Position numbers and translations under genes: made by a program
Source: a virus
Virus record (IMG/VR): IMGVR_UViG_3300032605_000106
Span: 1-27,584 of that record
Reading direction: 5' to 3' (one strand)
DNA: 27,584 nt
Shown: positions 8,817-27,584 of the stretch, piece by piece
How the letters are laid out: each line of letters opens with the position of its first letter
How positions within the stretch are numbered: position 1 is the stretch's first letter
Notes under the pieces: generated by a model
What the model was told of the DNA's origin: nothing
The model's input: the letters and a program-made list of their open reading frames with translations, nothing else
Database searches by the model: none

Positions 8817-11800
8817 ATGGCAGGCAACTCAACCGGGTTATACGGCACAACTACAAGCAATCCAACAATATTACCAAATAACAATACTGGTTTATATAAT
8901 ACTGGAATTGCTCCAATACCTATCAATGGTAATATTACAGCTAACAACATTACTGCTACAGGAAATGTTAGTGTTGGCGGTTATGTCAGTGCGGTTGGTA
9001 ATGTCACTGGTAATTATGTATTAGGTAATGGTTATTACTTAACTGATGTTCAAGTTTCATATAGCAATGCCAATGTGGCCAATTACTTGCCTATCTATTC
9101 AGGCGCTATTTCAGCTAGCACTATTTCAACAACAGGTAGCATTACTTCGGCCGCTACTATCTATGGTAACACACTTACTATAACTGGTAACATTACAGCT
9201 AATGGAAACATTTCAGCTGCTTATTATCAAGGTAATGGTAGTCAATTAACAGGCATTATTAGTTCATATAGTAATGCCAATGTGGCAAACTTGTTGCCAG
9301 TTTATACAGGTAATATTTCAGCTCAAAATATTAGCGCAACTGGAAATATTACTGCTAGTATTTTAAGAACTCCTGGCAACCTTGGCAATATTATTGGCGT
9401 TAATTATACTGTATCTAATTTCTTTGTTGGAGATGGTAGTTTATTAACTAATTTGCCAGTTCAGCCTGGCACATATGGTAATGCCAATGTAGCCGCATAT
9501 TTGCCTACATATACAGGTAACATTACTGCTGGTAATGTGTCAGCTACAGGTAATATTGCTGGCAATTATTTTATTGGTAATGGTAGTCAATTAACAGGTA
9601 TTACTACAAATTATAGCAATGCCAATGTGGCAGCTTATTTGCCAGTTTATTCCGGTAACATTACAGCAGGTAATATTAGTGTAAGTGGTAACATTACAGA
9701 TGGTAACTTATCTACTAGTGGTAACATTACTACTGGCAATTTAATATCTACTAACTTAGTATCTGCTACTTGGATGTCAGCTACAGCTAATATTCAAGCT
9801 GGCATATTATTAAACACAGGTAACATTGTTCGACTAGGCACAGCGGCTGGTAATGCTACATCCAGTGCGGCTAATACTATTGCTATTGGTCGCAGCGCAG
9901 GTGCTAATACTCAAGGCGATGGTTCAATAGCTATTGGCCAAAATGCTGGTAACACAACACAAGCAGGTAATAGTATTGCTATTGGTCGTGCGGCTGGACA
10001 AACTACTCAAAATGCTAATGCTATTGCTATTGGCCGTTCGGCAGGTAATAATTCACAAGGTATTGAAACTATTGCTATTGGACACTTGGCTGCCAATAAC
10101 GCACAAGGTAATTATGCCGTAGCGATTGGCTATAGTGCTGGATCCAATAATCAACCAGCTAACAGCATTATGATTAATGCTAGCGCCAATGCGTTAAATG
10201 GTAACAATGCTGGTTTTTATGTTAATCCTGTTCGTTATGACACAGGCAATACCGCCAATGTGGTTTATTTTAATGCCGCTACAAATGAATTAACTTATGC
10301 CGCCGCATTAAGCAGCAGTTATGGCAATTCAAATGTGGCAGCTTACTTGCCAACTGATCCAACTATTATTAGTATTCAAGCTAATGCGGCTAATACAAAT
10401 AGTAATGTTGCTAACAATACTAGTAACATTACTACATTACAAAGTCAAGTAACAAGTTTAACAGGAAATGTTTATGGCAATGCCAATGTGGCAGCTTATT
10501 TGCCAACTTATACAGGCAATATTTCTGCTGGTAATGTTTCTGTAACAGGAAATGTGTATGCTCCAGAAATTGTTAGTTCAAATGTTACTGTATATGGTAA
10601 TAGTATTATTACTGGCAACTTAACTGTTCAAGGCACAACAACAACTATTAATTCCAATGTTGTTACTGTAAATGATTTGTCAGTATTGTTAGCTAATAAT
10701 ATTTCAAATATTGCTCAATTACAAGGCGCTGGTATTACAGCAGGTAATAGTGCTGGTAATAGTTTAATTAATTTTACTTACAATGTAGGATCAAATGCTT
10801 GGTCAAGTAATATTGGTATTGGTGTAACAGGCAATCTCAGTGCTACTGGTAATATACAAGGTTCATATATTTTAGGTAACGGCAGTCAACTAACTGGTTT
10901 ACCTATTCAACCTGGAACATATAGTAACACCAATGTTACTAGTTTATTAAGTAGTGGCACATATACTGGTGATATACAAGCATTAACTGGTGTTATGTTA
11001 GCGGCAGCAATAAGTTCATCTGGAACTGTTACAGCTAATGCCAATGTTACTGGTAATAATATTATTTCACTTGGTTATGTAACGGCAGCTAATGGTTTAG
11101 AATCAACTAGCACATATCCTGGCCCATATTCAGATGGCGTTGTAGTTGATTATTTGACTGGCACAGCTCGTATTAGTGTTGGCACAAATGATAATATTAG
11201 ATTTTATAACGGCGGCATCGCAAATACTGTATTAGGTGGATTTAATAGCACTGGCGCATTTAGTGCTATTGGTAATATTACTGGCAATTATTTTATTGGT
11301 AATGGTAGCCAATTGACAGGCATAACTAGCACTTATAGTAATGCTAATGTTGTTTCATTATTGTCTGCTTTTGGTAGCAATAGTATTTCTACTAGCGGCC
11401 AAGTTGAATCTGGCACCGTTGTTGCTGATACAAGTTTAACTTCAAATGGTTCATTATTAGTAACAGGTAACGCACAAGTTAATAGTAACTTAAAAGTTAT
11501 TGGCAATATGAGTGCTACTGGTAATGTTAGCGTAACTGGTAATATTAGCACACCAGCTAATATTAGTGCATACAAATTAAGTAGTCCATTTTTAAATGTA
11601 GTTACTGTTGCTAATATTTCAGGACAAACTTTCTTAGGATTATATGATCCAGGCAATAGTATTATTAATGATACATCTGTTCAAGCTAATTTAAATGTTG
11701 GATTAGCCCTTGCGGTAACTGGAGCAATTACTTCTGCTTCTACAATTTCTGCTACAGGAAATATTACTGGTAATGTATTAAAAGGAACACAAGTTTCAGT

Positions 11801-12773
11801 AAGTGGTAATATTACTGGTAATAACATTACAGCAACAGGCAATATTTCAAGTGGAAACATTAGTGCTAGCGGCAATATTGTTGGTAGATTTATTAATATC
11901 GGAAATGATATTAGTGCTGTGGGCAATGCTACAGCTAGTTACTTTATTGGTAACGGTAGCCAATTAACTGGCATTGTTGCCACAGCAAACTATAGTAATG
12001 CCAATGTGGCCAATTACCTGCCAACTTATTCTGGCGCATTTACTGCCGCAACTGTAACAGCTACAGGTAACATTAGTGGCAATTACATTTTAGGTAATGG
12101 TAGTCAATTAACCGGCTTGCCAGCTACATACGGAAACTCCAATGTGGCAGCTTATTTGCCAACATACTCAGGCAATTTAACAGCAGGCAATGTTAGTGTA
12201 ACTGGTAATATTACTACAGGTAATATCATTAACTTAGGAACTGAATCTGTAACTGGTAACATTACAGGCGGCAACATATTAACTATTGGCTTAATATCAG
12301 CAACAGGAAATGTGTCAGGCAATTACTTTATTGGTAATGGATCATTGTTAACTGGTATTTCCGGCGGCAGTTATGGCAACTCAAATGTGGCCGCATATTT
12401 GCCAACTTACACTGGTAACATTGGTAACACAGGTAATTCAGTATCAGTTCAATTTGTTAACTACAAAGATGTGTCATTGGCCAGTGCTAATGCTAACGGA
12501 ACAATTACACCAAATGTGTCATTAGGTTCAATCCAAACTTTGACATTAACTGGTAATATAACTTATAATGCTTTTGGTGGAACACCACAAGCTGGTCAAA
12601 GTTTAACATTGATTCTTACACAAGACACAACTGGTAATAGATTATTAACAAGTAACATGAAGTTTGCTGGTGGTGCTAAAACATTATCATCAGCTGCCAA
12701 TGCTACAGATATTATCTATACATTCTTTGATGGCACAACTTACTGGGCTACATTGTCAAGGGCATATCAGTAA
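8817..12773 (+). CDS. Long repetitive tail fiber with YadA-like head repeats
   Basis: This 1318-residue structural protein is dominated by Gly, Asn, Ser, Thr and Ala. It contains about nine copies of a GNGSQLTGI/L-type unit and eleven of an NANVAAYLPTYTGNI-type unit, separated by TGNITAGNISATGN-like beta-strand repeats. At residues ~355-450 there are six tandem 16-residue IAIG-x-x-AG-x-x-x-Q-x-x-x-x units, typical of YadA/Hep_Hag head domains of trimeric adhesins. The last ~108 residues (1211-1318) are non-repetitive and form a likely C-terminal knob (LTLILTQDTTGNRLL ... FFDGTTYWATLS). The short fiber at 13730 shares this knob. The whole looks like a trimeric beta-structured fiber for host recognition. 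AAGGAA lies just before ATG 8817, and the stop overlaps the next ATG (TAATG). Confidence 0.85.
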   Translation: MAGNSTGLYGTTTSNPTILPNNNTGLYNTGIAPIPINGNITANNITATGNVSVGGYVSAVGNVTGNYVLGNGYYLTDVQVSYSNANVANYLPIYSGAISASTISTTGSITSAATIYGNTLTITGNITANGNISAAYYQGNGSQLTGIISSYSNANVANLLPVYTGNISAQNISATGNITASILRTPGNLGNIIGVNYTVSNFFVGDGSLLTNLPVQPGTYGNANVAAYLPTYTGNITAGNVSATGNIAGNYFIGNGSQLTGITTNYSNANVAAYLPVYSGNITAGNISVSGNITDGNLSTSGNITTGNLISTNLVSATWMSATANIQAGILLNTGNIVRLGTAAGNATSSAANTIAIGRSAGANTQGDGSIAIGQNAGNTTQAGNSIAIGRAAGQTTQNANAIAIGRSAGNNSQGIETIAIGHLAANNAQGNYAVAIGYSAGSNNQPANSIMINASANALNGNNAGFYVNPVRYDTGNTANVVYFNAATNELTYAAALSSSYGNSNVAAYLPTDPTIISIQANAANTNSNVANNTSNITTLQSQVTSLTGNVYGNANVAAYLPTYTGNISAGNVSVTGNVYAPEIVSSNVTVYGNSIITGNLTVQGTTTTINSNVVTVNDLSVLLANNISNIAQLQGAGITAGNSAGNSLINFTYNVGSNAWSSNIGIGVTGNLSATGNIQGSYILGNGSQLTGLPIQPGTYSNTNVTSLLSSGTYTGDIQALTGVMLAAAISSSGTVTANANVTGNNIISLGYVTAANGLESTSTYPGPYSDGVVVDYLTGTARISVGTNDNIRFYNGGIANTVLGGFNSTGAFSAIGNITGNYFIGNGSQLTGITSTYSNANVVSLLSAFGSNSISTSGQVESGTVVADTSLTSNGSLLVTGNAQVNSNLKVIGNMSATGNVSVTGNISTPANISAYKLSSPFLNVVTVANISGQTFLGLYDPGNSIINDTSVQANLNVGLALAVTGAITSASTISATGNITGNVLKGTQVSVSGNITGNNITATGNISSGNISASGNIVGRFINIGNDISAVGNATASYFIGNGSQLTGIVATANYSNANVANYLPTYSGAFTAATVTATGNISGNYILGNGSQLTGLPATYGNSNVAAYLPTYSGNLTAGNVSVTGNITTGNIINLGTESVTGNITGGNILTIGLISATGNVSGNYFIGNGSLLTGISGGSYGNSNVAAYLPTYTGNIGNTGNSVSVQFVNYKDVSLASANANGTITPNVSLGSIQTLTLTGNITYNAFGGTPQAGQSLTLILTQDTTGNRLLTSNMKFAGGAKTLSSAANATDIIYTFFDGTTYWATLSRAYQ
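8930..12420 (+). repeat. Degenerate fiber repeats (GNGSQLTG and NANVAAYLPTYTGN units)
   Basis: In-frame degenerate repeats cover most of the long fiber gene. DNA such as GGTAATGGTAGTCAATTAAC and GGTAATATTACT recurs many times with small changes. Clear copies of the GNGSQLTG unit are near 9230, 9580, 10880, 11300, 11950, 12095 and 12335, with two degenerate ones near 9020 and 9430. The 13730 fiber carries the same vocabulary, so the copies can recombine with each other. Confidence 0.85.
9879..10166 (+). repeat. Six 48-bp repeats encoding YadA-head-like units
   Basis: Six consecutive 48-base units each encode 16 residues starting I/V-A-I-G and containing A-G/A at positions 7-8 and Q at position 12 (for example IAIGRSAGANTQGDGS). 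A seventh, decayed unit beginning IMIN follows at 10167. The unit matches the left-handed parallel beta-roll repeat of YadA-type adhesin heads. Confidence 0.88.
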
Positions 12774-13729: not shown

Positions 13730-14656
13730 ATGTCAAATATAAAATTTAGTCAATTACCAAACTTAGCACAAGGTAATATTACAGCAAATACTATTATCCC
13801 AGTAGTTCAAAGTGCTACCAACTATACTGTTACAACTGCTGAATTACAAACTTATGTAAATTCAACAACTGGTAATATTACTGCTAGTTACTTTTTAGGT
13901 AATGGTAGCCAACTGTCTGGCATTAATAACAATTATGGTAATGCCAATGTGGCAACTTATTTGCCTACTTACACAGGCAACTTATCTGCTGGTAATATAA
14001 GTGTTACTGGTAATTTAGCTGTTGGTGGCATTACTACTGATACAGGTAATATTACTGGCGGCAATATTATAACTGCTGGTCAAGTAAGTGCTACAGCTAA
14101 TATTTCTACTAGCAATTATTTTATTGGCAATGGTGCCTTTTTAACTGGTGTCACAAGTGCTAATGGAAATTATGGAAATTCAAATGTTGTATCATTATTA
14201 AGTAATTTTGGTAGTAATGTTATTTCAACAACTGGAACTATTACTGGTAATGGTAGTCAATTATCTGGCGTAGTATTATTAACTGGAGATCAATCTATAT
14301 CCGGTAATAAGAGCTTTGGTGGATTAACAACATTAAATTCTTATGTTGAAACTACAGCTAATTCAGTTAATACTGGTAGTTCATTTACACCTGCGTTGGC
14401 CAACGGTCCAGTTCAAAAAGTAACAGCAAGTGCTGCTTTTACATTAGCAGCTCCGTCGGGTATGACACAAGGTAGTAGTATTACATTGATAATAAATCAA
14501 GACGCTGTAGGTAATCGTGTGATGACTCCAAATAGTGTTTATAAATTTAGTTACGGAATTAATACTTTAAGTGTAGCACCATTGGCTATTGATACTTTAA
14601 CTATTTTTTATGATGGCACTAATTACTTGTGTAATATAGCAAACGGATATATTTAA
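13730..14656 (+). CDS. Short tail fiber, paralogue of the long fiber
   Basis: This 308-residue fiber protein opens with a distinct attachment-type N-terminus (MSNIKFSQLPNLAQGNI ... IIPVVQSATNYTVTTAELQ, residues 1-45). Three GNGSQLSG-type units follow (near 57, 140 and 183), along with NANVATYLPTYTGN and TGNITGGN repeats like those of the 8817 fiber. The final ~92 residues (217-308) repeat the same C-terminal knob plan (SSITLIINQDAVGNRVM, then LTIFYDGTNYLCNI). It looks like a compact version of the long fiber, made by duplication or module exchange. AAGGAA at 13719-13724 overlaps the previous stop. Its own TAA overlaps the next ATG by one base. Confidence 0.83.
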   Translation: MSNIKFSQLPNLAQGNITANTIIPVVQSATNYTVTTAELQTYVNSTTGNITASYFLGNGSQLSGINNNYGNANVATYLPTYTGNLSAGNISVTGNLAVGGITTDTGNITGGNIITAGQVSATANISTSNYFIGNGAFLTGVTSANGNYGNSNVVSLLSNFGSNVISTTGTITGNGSQLSGVVLLTGDQSISGNKSFGGLTTLNSYVETTANSVNTGSSFTPALANGPVQKVTASAAFTLAAPSGMTQGSSITLIINQDAVGNRVMTPNSVYKFSYGINTLSVAPLAIDTLTIFYDGTNYLCNIANGYI

Positions 14657-20136: not shown

Positions 20137-20469
20137 ATGACACCTGAATCAGAAGAAAAACTAAAAGTAGTTCATCATTTTGCCGGCGGAGTTTATGCCA
20201 AGGAAATGACATTAGAAACGCTCGAAGATTGTATGCATCAACATAAGCATCATTTCGATCATATGAGTATATTAACATCTGGCAAAGTTATGTTAGATGT
20301 TGATGGAGAAAAAACAATTCATACAGCTCCTGCTGTTTTGAATATTGCTGCCGGTAAGCGTCACTGGATTCTTCCTTTGGAAGCTCCAGTTAAATGGTTT
20401 TGTATTCACAGAACTGATTTTACTGATCCAGCTAAAGTAGATGATGATATAGTATCAGAGAGAGAATAA
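20137..20469 (+). CDS. Cupin-domain protein
   Basis: This 110-residue single-domain cupin has both metal-binding motifs. Motif 1 is H36-x-H38-x3-H42-x6-G49, with His where classical cupins have Glu. Motif 2 holds H76 in AAGKRHWI. These four His residues could coordinate one Fe, Mn or Ni ion. Cupins of this size range from enzymes (dioxygenases, isomerases) to sugar-binding proteins, and nothing seen here picks between them. It stands alone between the fiber chaperone and the ejection cluster, with its own promoter-like motif and one base before the next gene. It could modify a carbohydrate or fiber, or be a small structural part. No signal peptide is seen. Confidence 0.85.
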   Translation: MTPESEEKLKVVHHFAGGVYAKEMTLETLEDCMHQHKHHFDHMSILTSGKVMLDVDGEKTIHTAPAVLNIAAGKRHWILPLEAPVKWFCIHRTDFTDPAKVDDDIVSERE

Positions 20470-22123: not shown

Positions 22124-23086
22124 ATGGCCAATGCCTCACAAGGTTCATCAAGCGGACAAACAACTTATGTTCCACAAGTTAATCCATACCAAATAGCACA
22201 AAATGCTAATAGTGGCGCTGGCTACAATGCTTATACTCAAGGCGCTGGCAATGCTATTGCTGGCGGTCAAGATTTGTTTAATAGCAGTTTACCTGGTGTA
22301 AACTATGCGGCACAAAATGTAGCTGGCTATGGAGCTCAAGCACAAAATGTTTTAGGCACTGGCGGAGAACAAAACTTCAACGCAGGTAGTCAAGGCTTAC
22401 AAAGTTTGTTCAGTCCTGATTATGAACAACAACAATTGGCAGCTAGTCAAATTCCTGCTCAACAACAATATCAACAAAACTTAGCTAATCAACAAGCTGG
22501 CTTTGGTGGTGCTGGCCAATTAGGTTCAGCTCGTGCGGCATTAGCTGGTTCACAAATGGCTACTACTAATCAACAAAATCAACAAGTTGCGGCAGCTAAT
22601 GTGGCTAATCAAATTGCTCAACAAAGAGCTAGCGCAGCTAATCAGTTAATGACTGGCGGACAAAGCGCATTACAAGGTGGCTTGGCAGCTGGACAAGCTG
22701 GTATGGCCGCAAGTCAAGTTCCATTACAATATGCTAATCAATATGCTAATTACTTGAATTCATTTGCGCCAAACTTACAAGGCAACTTCTCCGGCACTAA
22801 TGGTTACACAACTACACAAAATGGCGGAAACAGTTCAGGTGGCGTTAACATTCTTCCAAGTTTATCAGATATTATGGCTAAAGAAAATATTGTGTTTGTT
22901 GACAATCAAGGCCGTCATAAGATTTATGACTTTAGTTATAAAGGCGACACTAAACGCTATCGTGGTGTTATGGCTCAAGATGTTCAGAAATATCAACCAG
23001 ATGCTGTTATTATGGGCTCTGATGGTTACTTGCGTGTTGACTATAGTAAACTTGGTTTACAAATGATTGAATTAGGAAAAGAATAA
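22124..23086 (+). CDS. Ejection-cluster protein with C-terminal S74-like chaperone domain
   Basis: The product has 320 residues. Residues 1-230 are Gln/Ala/Asn/Gly-rich and mostly helical (for example QQQYQQNLANQQAGFGGAG and AANVANQIAQQRAS), with no enzyme motif. From about residue 245 the sequence changes to a peptidase S74 / intramolecular chaperone-like domain: SDIMAKENIVFVDNQG, then IYDFSYKG, YRGVMAQDV, PDAV and LRVDYSKLG. The self-cleaving Ser-Lys pair of the family (S-D-x-x-x-K) is kept as S248 and K253. In fibers this domain promotes trimerisation and then cuts itself off. Here it ends what looks like an internal or ejection protein next to the transglycosylase gene. The stop overlaps the next ATG (TAATG). 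Confidence 0.8.
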   Translation: MANASQGSSSGQTTYVPQVNPYQIAQNANSGAGYNAYTQGAGNAIAGGQDLFNSSLPGVNYAAQNVAGYGAQAQNVLGTGGEQNFNAGSQGLQSLFSPDYEQQQLAASQIPAQQQYQQNLANQQAGFGGAGQLGSARAALAGSQMATTNQQNQQVAAANVANQIAQQRASAANQLMTGGQSALQGGLAAGQAGMAASQVPLQYANQYANYLNSFAPNLQGNFSGTNGYTTTQNGGNSSGGVNILPSLSDIMAKENIVFVDNQGRHKIYDFSYKGDTKRYRGVMAQDVQKYQPDAVIMGSDGYLRVDYSKLGLQMIELGKE

Positions 23087-25596
23087 TGGGTGCAGATCTT
23101 TCAATGTATCTGGATACGCCAGATGCTTTGCTACAACAACAAATGCCTGGTGTTGATATCGAAGCATTTAAAGCGGCTGTTCGTAAAAGTCAAAGCGAAG
23201 GCACAGATGCTAATGCTAAACCAGTTACACAAACTGTAAAAACTGATCCAACTACTGGTGAACAAACAATGACTATTAGTGGAAGTCCACAAGACTTATC
23301 ACCTAGTAATCCATTAACACCAACTGTTAGTGCTCCTGTTGTTCCACAACAAACAGCTCCACAAGCAGCTCCAGCTCCAGTTCAACCTGTTGCTCCGGAT
23401 CAAACATTTAATCGTATGGTTCAAGCCGAGTCAAATGGACAACAATTTAATCCACAAGGTGGCGTATTAACAAGTCCAAAAGGCGCACAAGGTATGGCAC
23501 AAATTATGCCAGCTACTGCTGCCAATCCCGGTTATGGTGTAGCTCCTGCTACTCCAGAAGAAATAGCTACACCAGAAGGTAATAAAGCATTTGGTCAAAG
23601 ATACTATCAAGGTTTGTTAAATCACTTTGGTGGCGATGAACAAAAAGCTATTGCGGCATATAATGCTGGTCCTGGTCGTGTTCAACAAAACTTACAAGCT
23701 AACAATGGTCAATTAAATGTTAGCCAATTGCCACAAGAAACACAAGGTTACTTAAACCAAGTTCAAGGTCAAGGTCCTGTTGCTCCTAATCAAGTAAGTC
23801 CTATGATTGCTGGTAGTGCTAGTTCTGATGTTGGCTTAACTCCAACTGAACAAGCTATTGCTCAAATGAATGGCGGTAAAAAGCCAAATGAAGCAGAAAT
23901 TAACACTTATTATGGAAAACAAATTGTTGACAATTTAGGTAATCCAGTTAAGATGGCACAGATCTATCAGGATCCTAATGCTCCTGCTTTTGCTAAACAA
24001 GCATCTATGCGCCAAATGGCAGACATTATGGGATTCCAAAAAGGCACAGCTGATGCTCAACGCGATGTAAGCCAAATGACTCCTGATGCTATTGCTAACG
24101 CATTAAAGAGTAAAAGCGAAGAAGGTAGTTATGTTAAAGCTGTGTTGTATGCTCAGTTAGGTTTAAAAGACTTAGCGGCTGAAGAACAACAAAAGCTAGG
24201 TGCTGGTCGTTATTTTGAAATGCAAACAATAGGTTCTGGCCCTAATGCTGAACCTGTATTGATTCAAAAAGATAAAAATGGAATGCCAATCTATGGTATT
24301 ACTAATAGCGGACAACAATTAACTACTAAAGAATTAGCTGTTTATGCGGCACCAAAAGGTGTTGAACAAAGTAGTGAAATTTATAAAAATCCTTATGACA
24401 AGAATGGCCCTGCGTTCTACTATGAGCGTCGTCCTGGACAAACTGCTGTGTTCAAAGAAGTTGGAACTGGTCGCGTAGCTACTCCAGAAGAAGCTAAGTT
24501 ATTGAATAAGATTGGTGTTGCTGGAACTCTTGAACAGCAAGGCACAGCGGCTTATAACAAAGGCGCATATGGTGCTGCTGGTCGTGGCGCTGGTGAAGGA
24601 CTTACTCCTACAACTATTGCTGCTCAACCTGGCATACAAGGTCAAGGCGCTCCAACTGTTTCTGGTCCTGCTATTCCTGGACAACCTGGCACACAGCCTG
24701 TTGTTAGACAGCCTGCTCCAACAACTGCTCCAACAACAACTGCGCCTGTAGTTAATAATCCTAGTATTCCAAATCCATTTAACCAAACAGCTACTACAAC
24801 AGCTCCAGGTGGTGGCATTGCTCAACAAAAAGAAAATATTAAAACACAAGGTCAACGCACTGAATCCTTTAATAAGATTATTGATACAGAATATCGCGAA
24901 GGCGCACAAAAAGGCGAAGTTATTAGCAATAACCGTAAACAACAATTTGATATTTTAAATCGTGTTGATCCAGCTACTGGTAAAGGAATGGCTGAAACTA
25001 TTAGTGGACTATACAATGCTGCCAATGAACATCCAGGCGAGCAAAAATGGTCCATTGTGCGTGACATTATGGCAGGTAAAGCATTGCCAGATAATGACGC
25101 TAGTAATCGCATAGCACAATTAAATTTAAGTCCAGATGCTAAATCAGCGTTACAACAATTTAATTCGTTAAATGCTCAAATAGCTAGTCAAACATTGCGT
25201 GAAACAGCAGGTCCTGGTTCAGTATCCGATGCTGAACAAGCCGCTAACCGCGCACGAAATGTTGACCTAACTAAAGCTCCAATGCTTGGTGCTTATAACA
25301 TGATGGGTCAAAGTCAATTCACAGGTGATTTACACCGCTATAAAGCTGACTTAGCCGCTGGAACTAATGCTCCAAACGCTACTGCTTTTGATAGAGATTT
25401 CCGTAAAACACAAGCTGAATTAATTAAATCATATCGTGAAGTTACCGAAGCTCGTTTAAGTTATATTGATAAAAACGGCGGCGCAAGTAATCCAAATGCT
25501 ATTCGTCAAGCATATAAATTATATCCTGTTCCAGAATATGATCCAGGAACTGGCGAATGGAAATATACAAAACCTTTAAGTAAGATACTAAAATGA
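23086..25596 (+). CDS. Large virion protein with lytic transglycosylase domain
   Basis: This is an 836-residue protein. After ~105 Pro/Gln/Thr-rich residues, a soluble lytic transglycosylase (SLT, lysozyme-like) domain spans ~106-226. The likely catalytic E115 lies in MVQAESNGQ, with GAQGMAQIMPATA at 133-145, AIAAYNAGPGRV at 188-199 and LPQETQGYL at 215-223, the usual order. The remaining ~600 residues are helical or disordered, with a Pro/Thr/Gln-rich linker around 500-585 and a helical C-terminus. It probably travels in the virion and opens peptidoglycan locally during DNA entry, like T7 gp16 or P22-type ejection proteins. A tape measure with an SLT domain is the alternative, but no other long-tail genes are seen. 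It overlaps its neighbours on both sides. Confidence 0.85.
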   Translation: MGADLSMYLDTPDALLQQQMPGVDIEAFKAAVRKSQSEGTDANAKPVTQTVKTDPTTGEQTMTISGSPQDLSPSNPLTPTVSAPVVPQQTAPQAAPAPVQPVAPDQTFNRMVQAESNGQQFNPQGGVLTSPKGAQGMAQIMPATAANPGYGVAPATPEEIATPEGNKAFGQRYYQGLLNHFGGDEQKAIAAYNAGPGRVQQNLQANNGQLNVSQLPQETQGYLNQVQGQGPVAPNQVSPMIAGSASSDVGLTPTEQAIAQMNGGKKPNEAEINTYYGKQIVDNLGNPVKMAQIYQDPNAPAFAKQASMRQMADIMGFQKGTADAQRDVSQMTPDAIANALKSKSEEGSYVKAVLYAQLGLKDLAAEEQQKLGAGRYFEMQTIGSGPNAEPVLIQKDKNGMPIYGITNSGQQLTTKELAVYAAPKGVEQSSEIYKNPYDKNGPAFYYERRPGQTAVFKEVGTGRVATPEEAKLLNKIGVAGTLEQQGTAAYNKGAYGAAGRGAGEGLTPTTIAAQPGIQGQGAPTVSGPAIPGQPGTQPVVRQPAPTTAPTTTAPVVNNPSIPNPFNQTATTTAPGGGIAQQKENIKTQGQRTESFNKIIDTEYREGAQKGEVISNNRKQQFDILNRVDPATGKGMAETISGLYNAANEHPGEQKWSIVRDIMAGKALPDNDASNRIAQLNLSPDAKSALQQFNSLNAQIASQTLRETAGPGSVSDAEQAANRARNVDLTKAPMLGAYNMMGQSQFTGDLHRYKADLAAGTNAPNATAFDRDFRKTQAELIKSYREVTEARLSYIDKNGGASNPNAIRQAYKLYPVPEYDPGTGEWKYTKPLSKILK

Positions 25597-26390
25597 CAGA
25601 TCAAGAACGCGAAGAAAAAATAGCAGAAGCTCGTGCTAATGGTTATACCGAAGAGCAAATTAAAGAGTTTGTTAATCAACACGCTCCTGCTCCAGCTGGT
25701 AAAGAACCATTTGTAAATCGTAATGAAGAAAAATGGGGCACTGGTGAAATAGCTGGTGCTGGACTTGCTGGTTTGGCAGCCAAATATGGAATAGAATATT
25801 TGGCAGGTAAAAAATTATTAAGTGCCGCTGGTAATGCTTTCCGCGGTAATCCTAGTGCTGGTGCCGGTGGCGCAAGTGGTGGTGCTGGTGCTGGTGGCGC
25901 AAGTGGTGGTGCTGGTGCTGGTGGCGCAAGTGGTATTAAACCAGGAGGCGTTCCTTATAATGCTGGAATGATGCCTGAAGGCGGACCTATTGCTCCTGAA
26001 GTTGCTCCAACTACATTATCAGGTGGTGCTAATCCAGCATTTGATGCTGCGCTAGCAAAACCATATGGCGCTGGTCCTGTATTAAGTTCAGTTGCTCCAG
26101 CCGCAGCATTTAGTGCGCCGTATGCTATGGCCGCATATGAACAAAGTAAGATTCGTCAAAATCCAAATGCTCCTGAATATGCTACTAATCCATACGCACA
26201 ACAAGTTCGCGGTGAAGCTCCAACACAAGGAGCTGCTGGTGCTATGAATACACGCAACGCAATTGCCGGCCAACAATATGGTGGACTAAGTAAAGCTGAA
26301 CAAGATATGCTACAGCAAGATGCTATCGATCGTCAAATTCGTTTGAAGGCCGCACAAAAGGCATTACAACCAGTAGTCCCAGGACAATAA
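25593..26390 (+). CDS. Gly/Ala-rich ejection-cluster protein (265 aa)
   Basis: I do not recognise a family. The N-terminus (MTDQEREEKIAEARANGYTEEQIKEFV) is a helical pair of a kind often seen at the start of internal virion proteins. A hydrophobic, Ala/Gly-rich segment at ~52-80 (GEIAGAGLAGLAAKYGIEYLAG) follows. Residues 92-114 are a perfect Gly/Ala/Ser tandem repeat, then come Pro/Ala-rich stretches and a charged C-terminal helix. ATG 25593 overlaps the transglycosylase stop (ATGA), so the two are coupled. The context suggests a virion or ejection protein. Confidence 0.78.
   Translation: MTDQEREEKIAEARANGYTEEQIKEFVNQHAPAPAGKEPFVNRNEEKWGTGEIAGAGLAGLAAKYGIEYLAGKKLLSAAGNAFRGNPSAGAGGASGGAGAGGASGGAGAGGASGIKPGGVPYNAGMMPEGGPIAPEVAPTTLSGGANPAFDAALAKPYGAGPVLSSVAPAAAFSAPYAMAAYEQSKIRQNPNAPEYATNPYAQQVRGEAPTQGAAGAMNTRNAIAGQQYGGLSKAEQDMLQQDAIDRQIRLKAAQKALQPVVPGQ
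25866..25934 (+). repeat. 27-bp perfect tandem repeat (Gly-Ala-Ser coding)
   Basis: GGTGGCGCAAGTGGTGGTGC plus TGGTGCT makes a 27-base unit present twice without a mismatch (25866-25892 and 25893-25919), followed by its first 15 bases. It encodes GGASGGAGA. The perfect identity, including third positions, shows recent duplication and makes copy number likely to vary. Confidence 0.92.
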
Positions 26391-26391
26391 T

Positions 26392-26823
26392 ATGACAACA
26401 CTAGATCAATTAACCGAAACATTTTGTGATAACTTTGTAAACAGTTACAGAGCTCACAGTTCACATTTCAACATTGAAGGTGAAAACTTTTATGGCTGGC
26501 ATAAATTGTTACAAAAGATTTATGAAGACAGCGAAAGTATTCAAGATGATTTGGGCGAATTGATTCGTGCTCTTGGCGCATTTGCTCCAGAAACTATTAG
26601 TGAAATATTAAGTTATGCTGATTTAGAAGACCGTAAAACAGGCGCTAGCGCATTTGATATTCTTGAACTAGTATTAGAAGGTCAAGAGCATATGGTTAAC
26701 AGCTATCGCAAATTAGAAGAAGTTGCGGATGCTGAAGAAAACGATGACATTGCTAATTTTGCGCAGGATCGAATTCGTCAGCATAAAAAGTTCGCTTGGC
26801 AGTTAAGAGCTAGTTTAGGTTAA
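26392..26823 (+). CDS. dps: Dps / ferritin-like protein
   Basis: The protein has 143 residues and a four-helix ferritin-like fold of the Dps family, whose members form 12-subunit shells that oxidise and store iron with peroxide and may bind DNA. Its first helices carry HFNIEGENFYGWH (H25 and H37), matching the HWN-x-x-G...H motif. The intersubunit ferroxidase pattern continues with D52 and E56 (equivalent to D78 and E82 of E. coli Dps). The position equal to E. coli D67 is Gln (Q41). There is no long Lys-rich N-terminal tail (the first 24 residues hold one Arg), so DNA binding as in E. coli Dps is not evident. It follows the ejection cluster by one base, with AGGA at 26381-26384. Confidence 0.88.
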   Translation: MTTLDQLTETFCDNFVNSYRAHSSHFNIEGENFYGWHKLLQKIYEDSESIQDDLGELIRALGAFAPETISEILSYADLEDRKTGASAFDILELVLEGQEHMVNSYRKLEEVADAEENDDIANFAQDRIRQHKKFAWQLRASLG

Positions 26824-26910: not shown

Positions 26911-27171
26911 TCAATCCCCAAAAACACCCACAATATTGCTTTGCCCAGTTACATAGTAAGTTTGATCTTCATATGATATCTTAGCTGTGCGACCCCAGTC
27001 AACAATAACTCTGTCGCCTTCTTTAATACCACAGTTAACTTCTGGACCACAACTCATAACAATAGCTTCAGTTGGCGTGTCACTCATGCCTTTAATAATT
27101 AATCCTGAATCTGAAGTTTCTTCTTTTAATATTGCTTTAACGATTACATTTGCTTTAATTGCTTTTAACAT
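26911..27171 (-). CDS. GroES-like co-chaperonin (Cpn10)
   Basis: This 86-residue Cpn10-like protein would be the lid of a chaperonin chamber. The pattern is the N-terminal strand ANVIVKAI (7-14), then a mobile-loop region ~16-32 with SGLIIK holding the LII tripeptide (24-26) where GroES has IVL. IKEGDRVIVDWG (49-60) and a YYVTGQSNIVGVF ending (72-84) follow. The loop before GDRVIV (SCGPEVNCGIKEGD) is about eight residues shorter than in E. coli GroES, so the roof hairpin appears to be missing, as is also known for T4 gp31. No GroEL is seen in the window, so it would pair with the host GroEL, perhaps for capsid folding. AAGGAA on the minus strand precedes the ATG. Confidence 0.88.
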   Translation of the reverse strand: MLKAIKANVIVKAILKEETSDSGLIIKGMSDTPTEAIVMSCGPEVNCGIKEGDRVIVDWGRTAKISYEDQTYYVTGQSNIVGVFGD

Positions 27172-27181
27172 TTCTTTTCCT

Positions 27182-27562
27182 TTATTGGTATCTAAATTCT
27201 TTGCTATCTACACTATGTTCCTTGTTTACATCTGTATACTTGTTAGGATCATAAGTTCCTGTTCTACTGGTGATTGTGTCCAAACTAAAAATTGGATCAT
27301 CTAGTTTAATCGTTTTGATTGACAATCGTTTCCAAGCTAATGTTCCACGCACATGATATCCAGCCGCATCATGTAAGAACATTAATGGTTCCCAATCCAA
27401 TCTAATACAACTACTGGCAATCATTTTAATTTCACAAATGTCTGCCCACTTCTCCCACAGTCTAAACATTTGAAATATCAATGCCACACGCTGGCGCACT
27501 GGTAAATTCAAATCTACACTAGCAAATCTGGCAGTAGCCATTTCTTCTCTACTAAACACCAT
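27182..27562 (-). CDS. Hypothetical protein, probably extends past the window
   Basis: I do not recognise this protein. The frame stays open from ATG 27562 to the right edge (it adds WVVREQR), so the gene may start outside the window. Possible starts inside are ATG 27562 and ATG 27541, the latter with AGAAGAA just before it, giving 119 residues. The product has a helical region with Trp/Phe (VALIFQMFRLWEKWADIC), a central LDWEPLMFLHDAAGYHVRGTLAW segment, and a polar C-terminus. Its stop lies ten bases before the start of the GroES-like gene, so the two likely share a minus-strand transcript. No membrane helix or enzyme motif is seen. Confidence 0.72.
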   Translation of the reverse strand: MVFSREEMATARFASVDLNLPVRQRVALIFQMFRLWEKWADICEIKMIASSCIRLDWEPLMFLHDAAGYHVRGTLAWKRLSIKTIKLDDPIFSLDTITSRTGTYDPNKYTDVNKEHSVDSKEFRYQ

Positions 27563-27584
27563 ACGCTGTTCGCGAACAACCCAA

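Follow-up and report, generated by a model that had tools for sequence, protein, structure and literature searches.

A predicted Dps mini-ferritin with a conserved iron site is a core gene of a podovirus-like phage clade

The DNA analysed here, a 27,584-base IMG/VR virus record that is classed as linear and may be a fragment (the window), ends its run of virion genes with a gene for a mini-ferritin. Most safely stated, our result is that this core gene of a phage clade encodes, as judged from sequence and structural model, a mini-ferritin whose iron site is intact. The window holds terminase, portal, major head protein and tail-type genes in a plus-strand run that closes with the Dps ORF, and the next genes lie on the minus strand (Table 1); the placement of Dps at the end of the virion gene run, made in a preliminary description of this DNA, is thus borne out. 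The phage is podovirus-like. Its nearest named record is MW202484.1, a 'Podoviridae sp.' from Manatee Spring, with 51% identity in the terminase and 58% in the major capsid protein.

Several other genes of the window deserve mention. A cupin-like protein of 110 aa is encoded amid the tail-region genes (20137-20469, plus strand; Pfam Cupin_2, below cut-off), and two repetitive long fibre-like proteins (1,318 and 308 aa; 8817-12773 and 13730-14656) have recurring 'GNGSQLTGI...YSNANVAAYLPTYTGN' motifs in common. The protein of the incomplete minus-strand ORF at the end of the window gave no match in Pfam, PHROG or NCBIfam; by eye only, it has an acetyltransferase-like appearance.

Table 1. Predicted features of the Dps region of the window
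Position	Strand	Feature	Remark
22124..23086	+	320-aa protein, C-terminal Peptidase_S74 chaperone match	Opens the conserved series of genes, with Dps as the last
23086..25596	+	836-aa protein, SLT transglycosylase domain (PF01464); putative internal/ejection virion protein	From domain and position
25593..26390	+	265-aa protein directly upstream of Dps (1-base gap); putative internal/ejection virion protein	SLT-fused in some relatives; role suggested by position
26392..26823	+	Predicted Dps mini-ferritin, 143 aa	H25, H37, D52, E56; Q41; F26 replacing the usual Trp; H22, Y44, W136 retained
26911..27171	-	GroES-like Cpn10, 86 aa, convergent with Dps	Homologue near Dps in 14/48 loci; context only
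27182..27583	-	Incomplete ORF	Its protein (~160-230 aa) lies downstream of Dps in 43/48 loci; context only

Fold and iron site

The Dps ORF, which starts with ATG, matches Pfam Ferritin PF00210 (5e-19; 69 bits against a cut-off of 24.5) and phrog_3636 (4e-22), and its best sequence matches in the PDB are H. pylori HP-NAP (8e-17) and H. cinaedi CAIP. The AlphaFold2 monomer prediction, made from an alignment of 26 relatives, has a mean pLDDT of 97 and a pTM of 0.91. Its helices (3-27, 33-60, 69-75, 87-114 and 118-142) comprise the four-helix bundle and the short BC-loop helix (69-75) of the Dps family, and Foldseek aligns the model to HP-NAP and CAIP at a TM of about 0.90-0.92 (0.91-0.92 for HP-NAP) and to MrgA at 0.94. 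Pairwise dN/dS is approximately 0.1-0.2 where dS is unsaturated, which points to purifying selection; together with the invariance of the four iron ligands in Dps retrieved through the terminase, this argues against a chance ORF. The earlier reading as a phage-encoded Dps is well supported by these values, and neither of the findings named in advance as fatal to it, homologues with broken iron sites or a fold unlike ferritin, was encountered.

The ligands H25, H37, D52 and E56, correctly reported beforehand, carry the same numbers as the HP-NAP ligands with which they align, and the BC helix of HP-NAP likewise spans residues 69-75 (PMC4192664). By its residues, the protein has the intersubunit His, His, Asp, Glu ferroxidase set of Dps instead of a DPSL/thioferritin-type site; two conserved cysteines and an in-bundle, bacterioferritin-like site mark the latter group, and the single cysteine here (C12) is not conserved. 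All four ligands are kept in 188 of 188 aligned Dps from the clade, other environmental phages, named phages, plasmids and the PDB, although some of the patterns used to retrieve that set span parts of the ligand region, so that the set fetched through the terminase is the clean test. In Dps from those relatives the four ligands and H22, Y44 and W136 are invariant wherever covered, and these residues persist in sequences that have diverged to approximately 35-40% identity.

The preliminary description had singled out a Gln at the equivalent of E. coli D67 (position 41). The Gln is indeed present; as a notable substitution it did not hold, because the position varies in phages and bacteria alike. 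The terminase-retrieved set, window included, has 13 Gln, eight Gly, three Glu and one Ala, and an acid is absent in most clade members. Among cellular and plasmid Dps, Gln occurs in CAIP and two Rhodobacterales plasmid proteins, and Met in two others. We dropped Gln41 as a clade signature: its occurrence in 48 of 48 members of a first, Dps-based set was an ascertainment artefact, one search pattern having contained Gln41 itself (LLQKIYE). Since E. coli D67 is part of a low-affinity site only (PMC9140674), and the second metal of Zn-loaded HP-NAP is held by H37 and E56 (PMC4192664), Gln41 probably does no more than tune the weak site.

What truly sets the clade apart is not Gln41 but the loss of Trp26, a residue that flanks the iron site and is otherwise conserved. 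Conservation of a Trp adjacent to the first ligand His is good in Dps, though not strictly a defining trait; position 26 is Phe in the window, Val, Phe, Ile, Leu or Ala across the clade, and Trp in no member. In HP-NAP this Trp swings aside upon iron binding (PMC4192664), and its Listeria equivalent has been implicated, together with Tyr50, in radical trapping (PMC10002758). The Tyr of that network, counted from the second His, is retained here as Y44. With Trp26 missing, the iron chemistry may differ from that of the Dps proteins studied so far. The Dps of Synechococcus phage S-EIVl (L057, 4827-5381), whose gene adjoins a sulfate adenylyltransferase gene, has likewise lost Trp26 (Leu) and has Gly41.

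Gene order, origin and relatives in head modules

Relatives sought through the terminase alone numbered more than 580. Of 20 larger records taken from these, 13 contain the SLT gene and all 13 carry Dps; three of the 13 were also found through Dps and some are closely related, which makes the effective sample smaller, and the remaining seven records may be fragments that end before the SLT gene. Dps belongs to the core genes of this podovirus-like clade. Its position is fixed as well: in 48 Dps loci the order is near-constant, with an S74-type or related protein, the SLT protein, a protein of about 265 aa, Dps, and then often minus-strand genes. In 31 of these loci the gene immediately before Dps is the 265-aa gene, in 10 it is a 265-aa/SLT fusion, and the gap to the preceding gene is mostly -4 to +9 bases. 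Domain and position suggest a role in ejection for the SLT and 265-aa proteins. A hairpin after Dps scored no better than shuffled sequences, and a terminator scan found none there.

A scan for host relatives with Dps and terminase alignments, covering 84,980 species of bacteria and archaea with one genome per species, returned none. In the phylogeny proposed beforehand as a check on host origin, the Dps proteins of the clade group together, with the long-branched S-EIVl protein inside, and are weakly nearest to HP-NAP and CAIP, in a deep tree that is poorly resolved and names no donor. On this tree we rejected a recent transfer from a host.

Dps genes also recur in the head modules of other phages. 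A structure search of viral proteins recovered Dps-fold domains within proteins named prohead protease (BFVD entries). In IMG/VR loci, Dps of the phrog_3636 type lies directly 3' of the portal gene phrog_776 (L231, L265-L277, L310 and L311, the L231 protein having an extension of approximately 225 aa), between portal and major capsid as proteins of about 270 aa (L287 and L289-type loci), or fused behind a head-maturation-protease region in ORFs of 1,709-1,735 aa immediately ahead of the major capsid gene (L307, L308 and L312); some other copies are near the terminase. The iron ligands are kept in all head-module and protease-fused copies. When homologues of seven head genes were sought in the fetched flanks, a recognised head or packaging gene was present in 39 of 51 loci of the head-module search set and in eight of 80 loci of a broader viral Dps set. 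The association with head genes is therefore recurrent across phages and not general; a general link was rejected on the broad set (L185-L264), which has very few fusions and few recognised head genes. The portal and head-protease associations, the loss of Trp26 and the core-gene status of Dps were all absent from the preliminary description.

The fused head polyproteins (L312 4200-9407; L307 and L308 4272-9401) combine a protease region with a Dps domain, and a Cys-rich linker is seen in L312. One broad protein cluster was counted 39 times within three genes of Dps over 79 loci (L188 6594-7109, L204 5803-6213 and similar), and two of its Cys-rich members have sub-threshold HiPIP (iron-sulfur) matches only. 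Finally, a 118-aa DUF5856 protein of MW202484.1 (L056, 38492-38848) has residues in the pattern H..HW / H / D..E, which align with the iron-site region of Dps. DUF5856, whose function is unknown, may on this alignment be a shortened Dps relative, and the pattern suggests that the family has a motif resembling an iron site.

Proposed role and its alternatives

We give an even chance to the reading that this is a mini-ferritin which is catalytic, does not bind DNA, is produced alongside virion proteins and most likely travels with virions. The protein would form a 12-subunit cage in which intersubunit sites, H25/H37 with D52/E56, would oxidise Fe(II), probably using peroxide, and store Fe(III). 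It would be made late, together with the putative internal (ejection) proteins, act at virion assembly, and then travel as capsid-interior or ejected cargo, where it could keep Fenton chemistry from packaged or incoming phage DNA. The computed basis consists of the fold, the site residues, purifying selection, acidity, the fixed position, and the head-module and protease-fused relatives. We prefer virion association because products that are fused to a protease or co-made with internal proteins are expected to enter the procapsid, and because a gene kept at the same site by all relatives examined looks more like that of a particle component than like a mobile stress gene. The virion-associated option raised in the preliminary description has thus become a serious one, strengthened by position and by these relatives, with packaging still putative. 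Against it, the head-module relatives belong to other phage lineages than the window clade, and in named phages Dps lies in the midst of nucleotide-metabolism genes, with anaerobic ribonucleotide reductase often its neighbour. That placement favours a catalytic Dps confined to the infected cell and absent from the virion, an auxiliary stress protein that would bring down free iron and peroxide in late infection; adjacency to virion genes would then reflect shared late expression only. Published phage Dps have been interpreted in this way (PMC8008677, PMC6669764), and host dps was strongly induced in one studied phage infection (PMC7354516). Cell-only action is a substantial possibility that ranks close behind virion association, although retention at one site in all relatives examined and recurrent placement beside or fusion to head genes exceed what a mobile stress gene would need.

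Two further explanations are much less probable. A non-catalytic Dps fold serving as cage or spacer in virion assembly, with no iron chemistry, would suit the company of virion genes, the clade-wide loss of Trp26 and the loss of the position-41 acid in most members, but the retention of the four ligands, H22, Y44 and W136 despite such deep divergence makes it improbable. Still less likely, and rejected on charge, is a DNA-binding, nucleoid-type protein that would cover the DNA of phage or host in the manner of Dps in starved E. coli, a reading favoured only by the name of the family and by PHROG's label 'DNA binding protein'. The window protein has a pI of 4.54, a net charge of -15 and no Lys or Arg in its first 14 residues, and it lacks the basic, Lys-rich terminal tail of DNA-binding Dps of the E. 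coli type. Across 72 relatives the pI is 4.1-5.3, the median net charge is -15, basic N- or C-terminal tails are absent, and the terminal extensions of some clade members are acidic. The earlier argument from the missing Lys-rich tail, that iron and peroxide handling is likelier than DNA binding, agrees with this acidity.

A wider proposal, which we hold tentatively, is that a catalytic mini-ferritin is carried within the virions of several tailed-phage lineages unrelated to one another. In some it would enter the procapsid by protease fusion or portal association; in the window clade it would be made alongside the ejection proteins and might be injected together with the DNA. Such phages would offer a viral counterpart of ferritin-loaded encapsulins.

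Relation to known systems

Phage Dps as such is already known, and has so far been read as a borrowed stress gene. In the open-licence literature we found no account of Dps as a head- or virion-module gene, fused to a prohead (maturation) protease or present in virions. If Dps is a standing part of the head module, it may be the phage's own iron and peroxide scavenger, guarding packaged or incoming DNA, or virions may contain mineralised iron; such a gene also bears on the possible origin of encapsulin-ferritin pairs.

HP-NAP and CAIP, both Dps-family dodecamers, have the fold, length, BC helix, ligand numbers, H22 and Y44 of the window protein, and CAIP has the same Gln41. They differ in sequence (26-30% identity) and in their Trp26, which is Phe in the phage, whose gene stands in a putative virion operon. 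The Dps of phiEco32-like, Grimontviridae, Lactobacillus and gut phages (PMC8008677, PMC6669764) have the H/H/D/E ligands in common with the window protein; unlike the window clade, most retain Asp41 and Trp26, and where inspected their genes lie in nucleotide-metabolism or unassigned regions. The head-module phrog_3636 proteins (L231, L289 and L312 types, and the BFVD prohead protease-Dps) have the same PHROG, iron ligands and virion-gene company, but belong to different lineages, keep Trp26, and sit beside portal or capsid genes or are fused to a protease, whereas the window gene follows those of putative ejection proteins. Encapsulins with ferritin-like cargo (PMC6668986, PMC9321382) offer an analogy only, in that they pair a phage-type shell with a ferritin-like iron oxidase; they are cellular compartments without a packaged genome, whereas the shell in the window clade would be a working phage head with Dps as its putative cargo.
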